Part shown: positions 46,865 through 51,799 of the stretch, piece after piece
How positions within the stretch are numbered: the first letter of the stretch is position 1
Layout: every line of letters begins with the position of its first letter
Assembly (NCBI RefSeq): GCF_034479635.1
Contig: NZ_CP140153.1
Location: 1,619,501-1,683,500 of the forward strand
Length of the DNA: 64,000 bases
Source of the DNA: Guyparkeria halophila
GTDB taxonomy: Bacteria; Pseudomonadota; Gammaproteobacteria; Halothiobacillales; Halothiobacillaceae
Reading direction: 5' to 3'
Translations under genes and position numbers: made by a program
The notes under the pieces: model-generated
Database searches by the model: none
The model's input: only the letters and a program-made list of their open reading frames with translations
What the model was told of the DNA's origin: nothing

Positions 46865-48166
46865 TTAACCGCGTGGAATCGACGATACCGAATCGAGGAC
46901 GTGGGTAGCGCCCTCGCGAATCTCGTCGACGATCGCCTCGACCGAGCGCACCTGCTCCCGGCCGAGATCGGCGACCCGGCTGGCGTTCTCGATCCGCTGG
47001 ACGATGTCGCCGGTGTAATCGAGGTTGCCGCGAATCACCTCGGCGATCTCGCCGGTGGCGGCACTGGTGCGCGCGGCCAGCTGGCGGACTTCGTCCGCGA
47101 CCACTGCGAAGCCCCGTCCCTGCTCGCCGGCGCGGGCCGCCTCGATGGCGGCATTCAGGGCCAGCAGGTTGGTTTGATCGGCCACCGCACTGATGGTGGC
47201 GACGATGGTCTCGATGTTCTTGGACTCGTCGTTGAGATTGCCGATCACCGCCTTGGCCTCCGCAATCAGATCGCGGATCTGCTCCGAGGTCTCGATCGAG
47301 GTGCGCAACGAGTCGGCGCCCCGGGCGGCGATGTCGGCGGTCTGCTGCGCGGTGGTGTAGGCGACCGACGAGGCATCCCGGGTCTGCTCGGCGGCCAGCA
47401 CCGACTCGGTGATGTCGGACGCAAACTTGATCACCTTCTCCACCCGCCCGTCCTCGTCGAAGATCGGGTTATAGGTGGCCTCAAGCCAGACCTCCTGGCC
47501 GTTGGAACGCAACCGGCGGAATTTGCCCGAGCGAAACACCCCGTCGGCCAGCTCCGACCAGAAATCCGGATGCTCGCGGTAGAAGGCCTCGTCACAGAAC
47601 AGGCGGTGGTGCTTGCCGCGCACCTGGTCGAGTGAGTAGCCCACCGTGTCGAGGAAATTGCGGTTGGCATCGATGATCGTGCCGTCGGGGGTGAACGAGA
47701 TCACCGCCATGGAACGATCCAGCGCCTTGAACACCGCCTCGTGGTCGCGGAGCTCTTCGGCCCGCTCGGTGACGTCCGAGGCGATCTTGACCACCCGTTC
47801 TACCCGGCCGTCTTCGGACTTAACCGGGAAATACGTCGCCTCCAGCCACAGGCGGTCGCCATTGGCCGTTACCCGCGGGAAGGTCCCCGAATGGGATTCC
47901 CCGCTACGCAGGATGTCCCAGAAACGCCGATAGGCATTCGACTCGGCGTAGTCGCCATCGCAGAACAACCGGTGATGTGCCCCCATCACGTCGCCACGCG
48001 CACGGCCGACCGTCTCCAGGAAGCGCTCGTTGACGTCCAGCACGTAGCCGTCCGGGCTGAACTCGATGTAGGCGACCGAGCCGCGCACCGCATCCAACAC
48101 GGCATTGCGCTGGCGTAATTGGTCCTGGCAATCGGCCAGTTCGTTGTGCAGACGACGGTTGAACAT
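46865..48166 (-). CDS. Soluble PAS-PAS methyl-accepting chemotaxis protein
   Basis: Cytoplasmic chemoreceptor of 433 residues, without membrane helices. A short coiled N terminus (FNRRLHNELADCQDQLRQRN) leads to two similar PAS domains (about 35-150 and 155-275), each with the FSPDG/FTPDG start and HHRLFCD motif, then a signalling domain with the conserved hairpin tip VADQTNLLALNAAIEAARAGEQGRGFAVVADEVR. The repeated LFCD segment resembles BdlA/Aer2-like receptors that signal energy state or oxygen. The signalling module is short. GGGAGGA before the ATG at 48166 sets the start. No other che genes are in the window. Confidence 0.9.
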   Translation of the reverse strand: MFNRRLHNELADCQDQLRQRNAVLDAVRGSVAYIEFSPDGYVLDVNERFLETVGRARGDVMGAHHRLFCDGDYAESNAYRRFWDILRSGESHSGTFPRVTANGDRLWLEATYFPVKSEDGRVERVVKIASDVTERAEELRDHEAVFKALDRSMAVISFTPDGTIIDANRNFLDTVGYSLDQVRGKHHRLFCDEAFYREHPDFWSELADGVFRSGKFRRLRSNGQEVWLEATYNPIFDEDGRVEKVIKFASDITESVLAAEQTRDASSVAYTTAQQTADIAARGADSLRTSIETSEQIRDLIAEAKAVIGNLNDESKNIETIVATISAVADQTNLLALNAAIEAARAGEQGRGFAVVADEVRQLAARTSAATGEIAEVIRGNLDYTGDIVQRIENASRVADLGREQVRSVEAIVDEIREGATHVLDSVSSIPRG

Positions 48167-48189
48167 CTTCGCTTCCTCCCGGCCGGCTC

Positions 48190-48278
48190 GCCCCCGACCG
48201 AAAGGTCGGGGCACGGCCGCCGTATTTGTATCGCTATTGTACATACCTTGTATAACTATGCGCACTTTAGTTCATCAA
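48190..48278 (-). promoter_or_regulatory. Leader hairpin and candidate promoter of the chemoreceptor gene
   Basis: A stem at 48190-48212 (CCCCCGACC/GGTCGGGG with a four-base loop) lies just before the ribosome-binding site. Reading the minus strand, TTGATG (48278-48273), 18 bases, TATACA (48254-48249) is a possible sigma-70 promoter in an AT-rich patch. No flagellar sigma-28 element was found. Confidence 0.35.
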
Positions 48279-48419
48279 CCCCGAACGTGCTGCATTTCGG
48301 GCCAAAAACGGTCCGGCAGCGGCTGTCGGTTGAGCCGGATCGCCGAGGTGGGCTTGGCAACGCCTCTCCGGCGTTGGATCATGCAGACACGCAACACAAT
48401 CATCTGGCAGGGAGTTTGA

Positions 48420-49613
48420 ATGTCTTATCTAAAGGACTTTCCGAACAAAGAGGGCTACTTCGGTGAATTTGGGGGCGCTTTTCTCCCCCCGGAACTCGAG
48501 CCGCATTTCGCCGAAATCGAACAGGCCTACCTGCGCCTGATGCGCTCGGCGGACTTTCTCAACGAGTTGCGCTACATCCGCAAGCACTACCAGGGCCGCC
48601 CCACCCCCGTTTACTACGCCCACAACCTCAGCGCCGATGTCGGCGCGCACATCTACTTCAAGCGCGAGGACCTCAACCACTCCGGCGCGCACAAGCTCAA
48701 CCACTGCATGGGCGAGGCCCTGCTCGCCAAGCACATGGGCAAGAAGAAACTGATCGCCGAAACCGGTGCCGGCCAGCACGGGGTGGCACTGGCCACGGCC
48801 GCGGCCTATTTCGGCATGGAGTGCGAGATCCACATGGGCGAGATCGATATCGCCAAGGAAGCGCCCAATGTCACCCGCATGAAGCTGCTTGGGGCGAACG
48901 TGGTGCCGGTGGGCTTCGGTGGCCGCAGTCTCAAGGAGGCGGTCGACTCGGCCTTCCAGAGCTATCTCTCACAGGCCGACGAGGCGATCTTCGCGATCGG
49001 CTCGGTGGTCGGGCCGCACCCCTTCCCCAAGATGGTGCGCAATTTCCAGTCGGTCATGGGCATCGAGGCGCGCGAGCAGTACCGGGAGATGACCGGTGAA
49101 TTGCCGGACCACGTCGCCGCCTGCGTCGGTGGCGGCTCCAACGCCCTGGGCCTGTTTGCCGGCTTTATCGACGATGACGACGTCCAGCTCCACGGCGTCG
49201 AGCCTCTGGGCCGCGGCACCGAGCTCGGCCAGCACTCGGCCACCATGACCTACGGCAAGCCGGGGATGATCCACGGCTTCAAGTGCCTGCTCTTGAGCGA
49301 CGAGGAAGGCAACCCGGCCCCGGTGCACTCGATCGCCTCGGGACTGGACTACCCGGGCGTCGGTCCCGAGCACTCGCATCTCAAGACCTCCGGGCGGGTG
49401 AACTACCACGCCATCAGTGACGACGAAACGCTGGATGCCTTCTACAAGATCTCGCGCCGCGAAGGCATCATCCCGGCGCTCGAATCCGCCCACGCGATCG
49501 CCTGGGCCATGAAGTTCGGCCGCGAGAACCCCGGCACCACCATCCTGGCCAACCTCTCGGGGCGTGGCGACAAGGACATCGACTACGTCACGGAGCACTT
49601 TGGCCATGGCTGA
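48420..49613 (+). CDS. TrpB-like tryptophan synthase beta protein, divergent active-site motif
   Basis: PLP-dependent beta-replacing enzyme of 397 residues. The PLP lysine Lys92, catalytic Glu114 in AETGAGQHG and phosphate loop GGGSNALG are conserved. The lysine motif is HSGAHKLNH, with Ser for Thr and Leu-Asn-His for the usual Ile/Val-Asn-Asn; the stretch [19 protein letters not shown] also differs from canonical TrpB. No trpA or trpF is near, so this looks like a stand-alone second TrpB that may make tryptophan from free indole and serine or act on another nucleophile. GCAGGGAG precedes the ATG. The stop overlaps purT by eight bases. Confidence 0.82.
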
Positions 49614-50814
49614 TCACGGCAGCATCGACACGCGTGCGGCGAGGATCGGCGCCCCCGGTTCGCCCGAGGCGCTGCGGCTGATGCTGCTGGGTGCCGGCGA
49701 GCTGGGCAAGGAGGTCGCCATCGAGGCCCAGCGGCTGGGCCTGGAGGTGATCGCGGTCGACCGCTACGCCAACGCCCCGGCGATGCAGGTCGCGCACCGC
49801 TCGCACGTGATCGACATGCTCGACGGCGCGGCGCTGAAAAGCGTGATCACCCAGGAGATGCCGGCGTTGATCGTCCCGGAGATCGAGGCGATCGCGACCC
49901 AAACCCTGATCGAGCTGGAGGCGCAGGGTTTCGTGGTCACCCCGAACGCGCGCGCCGCACGACTGACCATGGATCGCGAAGGCATCCGCCGGCTGGCCGC
50001 CGAGACGCTCTCGCTGCCGACCAGCCGCTTTGCCTTCGCCGAGACCGAGGCGCAATTTCTGACCGCCATCGACGAGATCGGCACGCCCTGCGTGGTCAAG
50101 CCGGTGACGAGTTCGTCCGGCAAGGGCCAGTCGCTCGTGCGCGAGCCGGGCGCGGCACTGCGCGCCTGGGAATTCGCCCAGTCCGGCGGTCGGGCGGGTC
50201 GTGGCCGCGTCATCGTCGAGTCGTTCATCGACTTCGACTACGAGATCACCCTGCTGACCATCCGTCACCGTGACGGCATCACCCTCTGTCCGCCGATCGG
50301 CCACACCCAGGTCGACGGCGACTACCGCGAGAGCTGGCAACCGCACCCGATGAGCGAGACGGCACTGGCACGGGCCGGTGAGATCGCGCGGGCGATCGTC
50401 GATGAACTGGGCGGTTACGGCATTTTCGGGGTGGAACTGTTCGTCAAGGACGACCAGGTGTGGTTCAGCGAGGTCTCGCCGCGCCCGCACGACACCGGGC
50501 TGGTCACCCTGGTTTCCCAGGATCTGTCGGAATTCGCCCTGCACCTGCGGGCGATGCTAGGCCTGCCCGTCCACGAGATCACCCAGCGCGGCCCGTCGGC
50601 CTCCTGCGCCATTGTCCGCGAGGGTGAGACCAGTCACCCTGCCCTGACCGGCACGAGCGCCGCGTTGGCCGAACCGGGCACCGAGCTGCGCCTGTTCGGC
50701 AAGCCCTCGTTGACCGGCAAGCGGCGGTTGGGCGTCGCCCTGGCGCGGGCGGAAAGCATCGAGCTGGCCCGGAAACGCGCCCGTCGTGCGGCCGGTTCGG
50801 TGCAGCTCAAGTGA
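49606..50814 (+). CDS. purT: Formate-dependent GAR transformylase
   Basis: ATP-grasp enzyme that converts glycinamide ribonucleotide, formate and ATP to formyl-GAR in purine synthesis, independent of folate. The 402-residue product has the N-terminal [22 protein letters not shown]-grasp motifs [15 protein letters not shown] and [24 protein letters not shown], and a C-terminal [10 protein letters not shown] strand. The start (ATG at 49606) lies within the end of the TrpB-like gene, so they are coupled. That pairing is unusual and metabolically unexplained. Confidence 0.95.
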
Positions 50815-50860
50815 TGACGGCACGCCGTTCCACAACCACGTCGAGGGAGGACGGCCACGG

Positions 50861-51799
50861 ATGAGCACGCGTCAGGGGATTCGCCTGGATGGCAGCGGCG
50901 GCCGGGTCGGGCCGCATCAAAAGCCCGCCGGCACCTGGATTCGATTCAACTGGGAGGACGCCGACGACCGGGAATGGCTCGAGCGGGAGGCCGGCGTCGA
51001 CGAGCTGGTCGCCGACAGCCTGCTGGCCGAGGACACCCGTCCCAGGGTGGTCGAGCACGACAACGGCCTGCTCCTGATCCTGCGGGGTGTGAACCTCAAC
51101 GCCGGCAGCCGCCCCGAGGACATGATCTCGCTGCGACTGTGGTTCGACGGCGAGCGCCTGATCAGCACCTCGCGTTTCCCGCTGCGTACCGTCGAGGGGA
51201 TCGTGCAACAATTGGAGCAAGGCACCGGCCCGGCCACGCTGGCCGACCTGATGATGGCGTTGATGGAGGGGCTGGCCGAGCGCACCGACGAGCTGATCGA
51301 ATCGATCGAAGAGGAAATCGACGAGTTGGAGGCGCAGCTTCTCGATGGGGCCGATCGAAAGCTACGGGGCCGCATTGGCGAAATCCGCCGCACGATCATC
51401 GTCATTCGCCGCTATCTTGCCCCGCAACGGGACGCGCTGGCCCGCCTGTCATCGATCAACCGCCCCCTGCTCGCCGGCCTGGATGGGCGCCGCATCCGCG
51501 AACAGGCCGATGCCCTCACCCGCCTGGTCGAAGATCTCGACATGGCCCGCGAGCGTGGTGCGATGATCCACGAACAATTGCTCACGCGGCTGTCGGACCA
51601 GCTCAACGCCCGCATGTATCTGCTCTCGATCGTCGCCGCCATCTTCCTGCCGCTGGGCTTTGTCACCGGGTTGTTCGGCATCAACGTCGGCGGCATGCCC
51701 TGGGTGGAGACCCCGATGGGGTTCTGGTGGGTCATGCTGGTGATCGTCGGCATCGGTGCCGGGCTGGGCATCTGGCTCAAGCGACGGCGCTGGTTCTAG
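50861..51799 (+). CDS. zntB: ZntB/CorA-family metal ion transporter
   Basis: Pentameric inner-membrane divalent-metal transporter. The 312-residue product has a long cytoplasmic N-terminal domain (about 1-250) with long helices, then two C-terminal membrane helices. The loop between them reads GINVGGMPW, the ZntB-type variant of the CorA GMN motif, and the tail is basic (KRRRWF). ZntB in enteric bacteria moves zinc. GGGAGG lies 11 bases before the ATG. It follows purT by 46 bases and converges with the ZIP gene, putting two metal transporters side by side. Confidence 0.88.
   Translation: MSTRQGIRLDGSGGRVGPHQKPAGTWIRFNWEDADDREWLEREAGVDELVADSLLAEDTRPRVVEHDNGLLLILRGVNLNAGSRPEDMISLRLWFDGERLISTSRFPLRTVEGIVQQLEQGTGPATLADLMMALMEGLAERTDELIESIEEEIDELEAQLLDGADRKLRGRIGEIRRTIIVIRRYLAPQRDALARLSSINRPLLAGLDGRRIREQADALTRLVEDLDMARERGAMIHEQLLTRLSDQLNARMYLLSIVAAIFLPLGFVTGLFGINVGGMPWVETPMGFWWVMLVIVGIGAGLGIWLKRRRWF

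Follow-up and report, generated by a model that had tools for sequence, protein, structure and literature searches.

Results

Gene pair in the window

The window analyzed in the present study is a stretch of 64,000 nucleotides from Guyparkeria halophila (contig NZ_CP140153.1, positions 1,619,501 to 1,683,500 of the forward strand). It contains a trpB paralog that overlaps purT, followed by a transporter gene (Table 1). The TrpB protein scored 518.2 bits against the NCBIfam model TIGR00263 (trpB; cutoff 392.45), and PurT scored 581.6 bits against TIGR01142 (cutoff 502.15). The eight-base overlap of the two genes, as given in the preliminary description, was confirmed. Downstream of the HSGAHKLNH motif, the protein carries Glu99, which corresponds to position 94 of the Escherichia coli enzyme.

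A promoter scan reported the sigma-70-type site in Table 1 as the sole promoter-like site over 48150-51000 (mean of 0.4 in shuffled sequences). Its hexamers and 17-base spacing were identical 5' of the gene in all nine copies of the genus and in G248, and an upstream comparison did not reveal the site in G217. From this arrangement, a single promoter likely transcribes trpB and purT. Repeated TTGTA words were also observed at 48219-48262, 5' of a divergent chemoreceptor-like gene; they are partly conserved in the genus alignment and are possibly an operator.

Table 1. Positions of the genes and signals of the trpB-purT locus in the window
Feature	Position	Strand	Basis or remark
Sigma-70-type site TTGGCA-N17-GATCAT, probable trpB-purT promoter	48354..48382	+	Promoter scan
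Shine-Dalgarno AGGGAG of the TrpB paralog	48409..48414	+	Sequence reading
Stand-alone TrpB1-type paralog, 397 aa	48420..49613	+	ORF, profile, alignment
HSGAHKLNH codons (residues 87-95)	48678..48704	+	PLP lysine is residue 92; clade-marking His95 (E. coli 90)
GGAG, probable purT Shine-Dalgarno, within trpB	49592..49595	+	Sequence reading
ATGGCTGA, eight-base overlap of trpB stop and purT start	49606..49613	+	Sequence
purT, formate-dependent GAR transformylase, 402 aa	49606..50814 (ATG 49606, stop ends 50814)	+	Profile search
CorA/ZntB-like membrane transporter, next gene	50861..51799	+	Named by eye; present in 9/9 genus loci

The trpB paralog, purT, and the CorA-like gene were consecutive at all nine loci found in the genus, each with the same eight-base overlap (by match coordinates, including the frameshifted copy of G001; six junctions were read directly). 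Neither the trpB paralog nor purT was present in two genomes of the genus, which are 64% and 85% complete. Seven other intact genus copies were 94-98% identical to the window TrpB. In the genus member G001, a frameshift places residues 1-172 of the paralog (L012) in one frame and residues 165-397 in another, and purT is open; either this copy is a pseudogene or the assembly is erroneous here.

No purT was found in the flank of any examined locus outside the genus that belongs to the TrpB clade described below, many of these flanks being only 1.5 kb long. The clade trpB and purT of G011 were on different contigs, and purT followed a purD-like gene (named by eye) in three other members of the family. 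The conservation of gene order suggested as a check was, thus, found at all nine genus loci and nowhere else among the loci examined. We read the trpB-purT pair as a putative genus-specific operon, namely, a local arrangement. PurT as the sole GAR transformylase of the cell was rejected because PurN is also encoded in the window genome.

A second, canonical trpB

One TrpA and two TrpBs are encoded in the window genome (one contig, 2.45 Mb). The trpB outside the window is part of a truA-trpF-trpB-trpA cluster (truA and trpF named by eye) located approximately 380 kb from the window gene. Its product is canonical, with the motif HTGAHKINN, and is 54% identical to the window TrpB. The single TrpA match of the genome (C1:1289738) adjoins this canonical trpB, and the window trpB adjoins no trpA. 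The lack of a nearby trpA described previously was borne out, and the second trpB that was to be sought beside trpA was found. The preliminary description had also considered that the window gene may be the only trpB of the genome and that the gene pair may not be conserved; the gene is one of two, and the pair is unconserved outside the genus among the loci examined.

A distinct clade within TrpB1

The divergent stand-alone TrpB that had been proposed was corroborated: the sequence and tree data place the window gene in a distinct clade inside TrpB1. The clade is marked by His instead of Asn or Gln at position 90 and Glu instead of Gln at position 94 (E. coli numbering is used hereafter), and its markers are His90, Glu94, Lys141, Ala301, and Ser302. 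The HSGAHKLNH motif is present as described; however, its Ser and Leu are not diagnostic because many members of the clade have HTGAHKINH. Ninety proteins with both His90 and Glu94 define the clade. Among 86 other TrpBs, 84 combine Gln94 with Asn90, Ser90, or Gln90; of the remaining two, the first has His90 with Gln94 and the second was unreadable. Since the 90 rows were selected by the motif itself, their uniformity at positions 90 and 94 is by definition. The copies of G001 and G106 (no single open frame with the motifs), cores shorter than 340 aa, and repeated cores had been dropped from both row sets.

Two tests of the clade are independent of the motif. The first is the identity gap (60% vs 55%): a copy with 60-100% identity was detected in 29 of 369 gammaproteobacterial genomes, three of them from the window's genus, and the next best match was 55% identical. 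The second is a tree constructed without the motif columns, in which 53 of the 90 clade rows and 32 of the 86 others, hand-picked for breadth, were split by a branch with 100/99 support. The split was found in all of the 200 bootstrap trees examined. The phylogeny suggested for HSGAHKLNH-type TrpBs accordingly resolved them as a separate group.

Clade rows were sampled in nine phyla (NCBI labels), with several phyla represented by a single MAG, and many of the carriers are MAGs. In a quick tree, the window copy fell within a 35-row set (support of 99) with Bacteroidota, Clostridia, and Campylobacterota, apart from most other gammaproteobacterial copies, which favors lateral transfer; this 35-row set was not starred in the careful tree. 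Several further sequences were noted. The clade trpB of G106 (L055/L160) contains an in-frame TAA. G404, G558, and G485 each have two full-length clade trpB matches, and one of the G485 copies has an in-frame TAA. TrpBs with 55-57% identity to the window protein occur in the Clostridia genomes G534, G693, G480, G466, and others, some of which have a second TrpB; this could be a sister group.

Residues of the clade proteins

In the alignment, the window TrpB retains Lys87, Glu109, Ser377, the GGGSN loop, and Asp305. Leu166 is also retained, and the other sampled active-site positions are mildly changed. At the cut used, the clade differs from other TrpBs at 14 positions. Three are located beside the PLP lysine (90, 91, and 94) and five ahead of Asp305 (282, 294, 297, 301, and 302), and the others are 119, 141, 171, and 177, in addition to 28 and 385. 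The clade-wide changes are R141K, N171D, W177Y, S301A, and A302S, with Arg141 being present in all of the 86 other TrpBs. Based on the available part of a study on the Salmonella enzyme, a salt bridge between Arg141 and Asp305 stabilizes the closed state (PMC9512447). Since the catalytic residues are kept and the clade-specific changes include Arg141 to Lys, ordinary chemistry under changed control would be expected. The AlphaFold model was set aside because of its mean pLDDT of 73 (ten sequences), which was low near the Asp305 loop.

Clade proteins contain an average of 0.23 Trp residues (71 of 90 have none) vs 2.2 in the 86 others, and 0.28 vs 1.5 in the broader tree set; the window TrpB has one. 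Since the rows are related, this avoidance of Trp represents one or a few events, and may be a single inherited event.

Distribution of trpA and trpC

A scan of named genomes retained the best 80 of 590 confirmed loci, comprising 27 clade loci (the clade, therefore, has at least 27) and 53 others. Within these best 80, none of the 27 clade genes was paired with trpA, and trpA was present in the flank of 1/27 clade loci vs 38/53 others. The one exception is L070, in which a trp operon with its own canonical trpB beside trpA precedes the clade gene. Among the 27 named carriers, again within the best 80 of 590, 12 had no TrpA over the cutoff, and 11 of these 12 also lacked TrpC. Assembly gaps matter because three of the 12 (G394, G399, and G407) have extra TrpB pieces at contig edges.

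Based on match strength, 48 of 393 Clostridia genomes carry the clade, in a sample for which a completeness of 90 was the setting asked for, unconfirmed. The clade call required at least 61% identity (the next group reached 57%), and the motif was read for the fetched loci, not for the group at 55-57%. Match counts in Clostridia are lower bounds, four candidates being scored per genome. TrpA over the cutoff was absent in 36 of the 48 carriers, TrpC in 36, and both in 35. TrpB of other kinds was present in at least 183 of 345 non-carriers vs TrpA in 12 of 48 carriers (Fisher p 0.0003), which is a comparison of two different markers. G404 and G408 are common to the named and Clostridia sets. Among the gammaproteobacterial carriers tested, TrpA was present in 11 of 13.

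Signals of probable tryptophan-responsive control

A T-box was detected shortly 5' of the clade gene at 15 of 35 distinct Clostridia loci at a relaxed Rfam threshold (L222 and L073 are one locus, giving 35 rather than 36), and none was detected at the other 20 at that threshold. Three of the 15 matches passed the Rfam gathering score and 12 fell below it. The specifier, six bases before GAG, was an unambiguous UGG (Trp) in 12 of the 15. It was either UGG or UAC in L076; in L233, UGG occupies the aligned position with the spacing to GAG off, and the L229 T-box is cut off. At the same place, the comparison T-boxes of the L070 trp operon and of pheST in L074 (named by eye) read UGG and UUC, respectively. 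In L070, the trp operon and the clade gene have separate Trp-type T-boxes. The available text of a T-box survey (PMC2494555) records a trpB-like Dehalococcoides gene with a T-box.

Immediately 5' of the clade gene, L078 and L082 (from Fermentibacterota and Gastranaerophilales MAGs) carry a TrpR-like gene; the two products scored 51.7 and 57.1 bits, below the curated cutoff of 67.25. There was no Rfam match at 47900-51000 of the window and no known RNA leader at the gathering score in G001. TrpR was not found in any of the six genomes of the window's genus that were tried, using a model that matched only 1 of 14 controls. Trp control was, therefore, not detected in this genus, and the regulatory case comes from distant members of the clade.

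Other neighbors of clade genes

In L061 (11286-14058), L067 (11246-15042), and L079 (7559-9870), which belong to three phyla, the clade trpB is immediately adjacent to a molybdenum or tungsten uptake operon. These operons encode molybdate modABC or tungstate tupABC, and L067 has a moeA-like gene. Among the best 80 of 590 loci, such operons adjoined the clade gene at 3 of 27 loci and trpB at none of the 53 others (Fisher 0.036, post hoc; the pattern was seen before testing and the queries were taken from the three loci themselves). The canonical loci L110 and L122 have a modB-like match approximately 9 kb away. In G011, a gene for a ZnuA-like metal-binding protein (named by eye) is located just 5' of the clade trpB (L011, 402-1352); a link to zinc was dropped after a protein search found this gene beside no other clade locus examined.

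Discussion

The most probable explanation of these sequence comparisons is that the window gene encodes an autonomous, TrpB1-derived enzyme that converts free indole and L-serine to Trp without TrpA, as a Trp-sparing salvage route. Indole would be derived from the surroundings or from leakage of the cell's own TrpAB, and its condensation with L-serine would follow the usual PLP aminoacrylate mechanism, with TrpA taking no part. The reaction would serve under Trp shortage. We infer that the enzyme is active on indole alone and that the window copy keeps the role of its relatives in Clostridia. Counting against salvage are the separate trpFBA of the window genome, the presence of TrpA in 11 of the 13 gammaproteobacterial carriers tested, and the 20 of 35 Clostridia loci at which no T-box was detected. 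Free indole or a different nucleophile had previously been proposed as the substrate. The clade distribution and Trp-type regulation point to free indole as the best-supported substrate, and the different nucleophile is disfavored because Lys87, Glu109, Ser377, and GGGSN are kept and many Clostridia members are behind Trp-type T-boxes.

We consider it unlikely that the window protein is a spare TrpB1 that still functions in the TrpA complex, either for dosage or as a second assembly with the canonical TrpA. The window genome does encode TrpA, and the protein exceeds the equivalog cutoff for trpB and keeps Lys167, a residue located at the alpha interface. However, the clade-wide substitutions R141K, N171D, W177Y, S301A, and A302S argue against this explanation, as do the 36 of 48 Clostridia carriers and 12 of 27 named carriers (best 80 of 590) that have no TrpA over the cutoff.

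A beta-replacement with a nucleophile other than indole, yielding a non-proteinogenic or modified amino acid, appears improbable. Such a reaction is compatible with the residues around the PLP helix and the Asp305 loop that are specific to the clade and invariant within it, and with the Mo/W transport operons adjoining 3 of the 27 named loci (best 80 of 590). However, Glu109 and Leu166 are kept with only mild changes at the other sampled active-site positions, and the Trp-type T-boxes and TrpR-like neighbors connect some clade members with the supply of Trp. It is equally doubtful that the gene is a lateral acquisition of no present importance that persists by chance because it overlaps purT; the scattered distribution (29 of 369 gammaproteobacterial genomes) and the frameshift in the G001 copy would fit, and the 94-98% identity among the seven other intact genus copies and the conservation of clade residues speak against it. 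The trpB-purT pair as a functional one-carbon/serine module, the link entertained previously, is highly improbable even though every genus locus found shares the overlap, the gene order, and the probable promoter: a general link is unsupported because the coupling was found only in the window's genus, with no purT flanking the clade loci examined elsewhere (many flanks of 1.5 kb), purT is elsewhere in G011 and the three other family members, and PurN means that PurT is not the only such enzyme.

The autonomous, indole-using enzyme may extend to a broader proposal, to which we give about an even chance. The clade would represent a third functional class of TrpB that is TrpB1-derived, TrpA-independent, and Trp-poor, that is induced by uncharged tRNA-Trp in many Clostridia, and that has spread laterally across at least nine phyla. 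It would allow Trp auxotrophs to live on the indole of their neighbors, for example, in the gut, and would have been recruited to the purT transcript in the window's genus. If so, some genomes scored as simple Trp auxotrophs could be indole cross-feeders, and labeling the clade gene as plain trpB would misread them. In the accessible part of a reconstruction of gut amino acid pathways, TrpA with TrpB is the shortest salvage form (PMC9026213). The clade also offers natural TrpBs that have apparently lost TrpA and that share a small number of substitutions across the clade, which makes the escape of TrpB from TrpA control directly testable. R141K is foremost among them because, in the portion of the Salmonella study at hand, Arg141-Asp305 stabilizes the closed state (PMC9512447).

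In the open-access literature, from which subscription papers are mostly missing, no description was found of this TrpB1 clade and its T-boxes or of the trpB-purT pair. The activity of stand-alone TrpB1 enzymes is known from plTrpB and LBCA-TrpB, according to the part of the source available (PMC11917138). The closest PDB sequence to the window TrpB is that of LBCA-TrpB (5ey5). However, the window protein has only two of the six stand-alone residues, Res6, of LBCA-TrpB (Thr and Ser; a hand count using an inferred numbering offset and a partly available source); therefore, any autonomy would rest on other changes. In contrast to plTrpB, which has a TrpA partner in the available text (PMC11917138), the window gene has none beside it. 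The TrpR-like gene adjoining TrpB in L078 and L082 resembles the trpRBA operon for indole salvage in Chlamydia. However, the Chlamydia operon includes trpA, as far as the accessible text describes it (PMC7755916), and the L078 and L082 genomes have no TrpA match.

The window protein resembles TrpB1 (TIGR00263; E. coli TrpB) in scoring over the cutoff and in having the PLP lysine, Glu109, Ser377, GGGSN, and Asp305. It differs from operon-borne TrpB1 in that its gene is not partnered with trpA, in having almost no Trp residues, and at H90, E94, K141, D171, Y177, A301, and S302. From the available portions of three studies (PMC1854888, PMC11535334, PMC11085991), an additional TrpB outside the operon is known to provide indole rescue in the case of TrpB2; for BT_RS23500, such rescue was proposed from a cross-feeding test (PMC11535334, available in part). 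The window gene is similarly an extra copy outside the trp operon, as is TrpB2_o in the accessible text of Merkl (2007; PMC1854888). However, the window protein scored only 172.0 bits against the TrpB2 model trpB_rel TIGR01415 (cutoff 518.85) and 179.9 against PRK12391 (cutoff 366). According to the same partial source on TrpB2_o, the mean in species that have both types is 3.7 Trp codons per TrpB2 gene (PMC1854888), in contrast to 0.23 Trp residues per protein in the clade. In function, the window enzyme would resemble TrpB2, yet its sequence falls within TrpB1.
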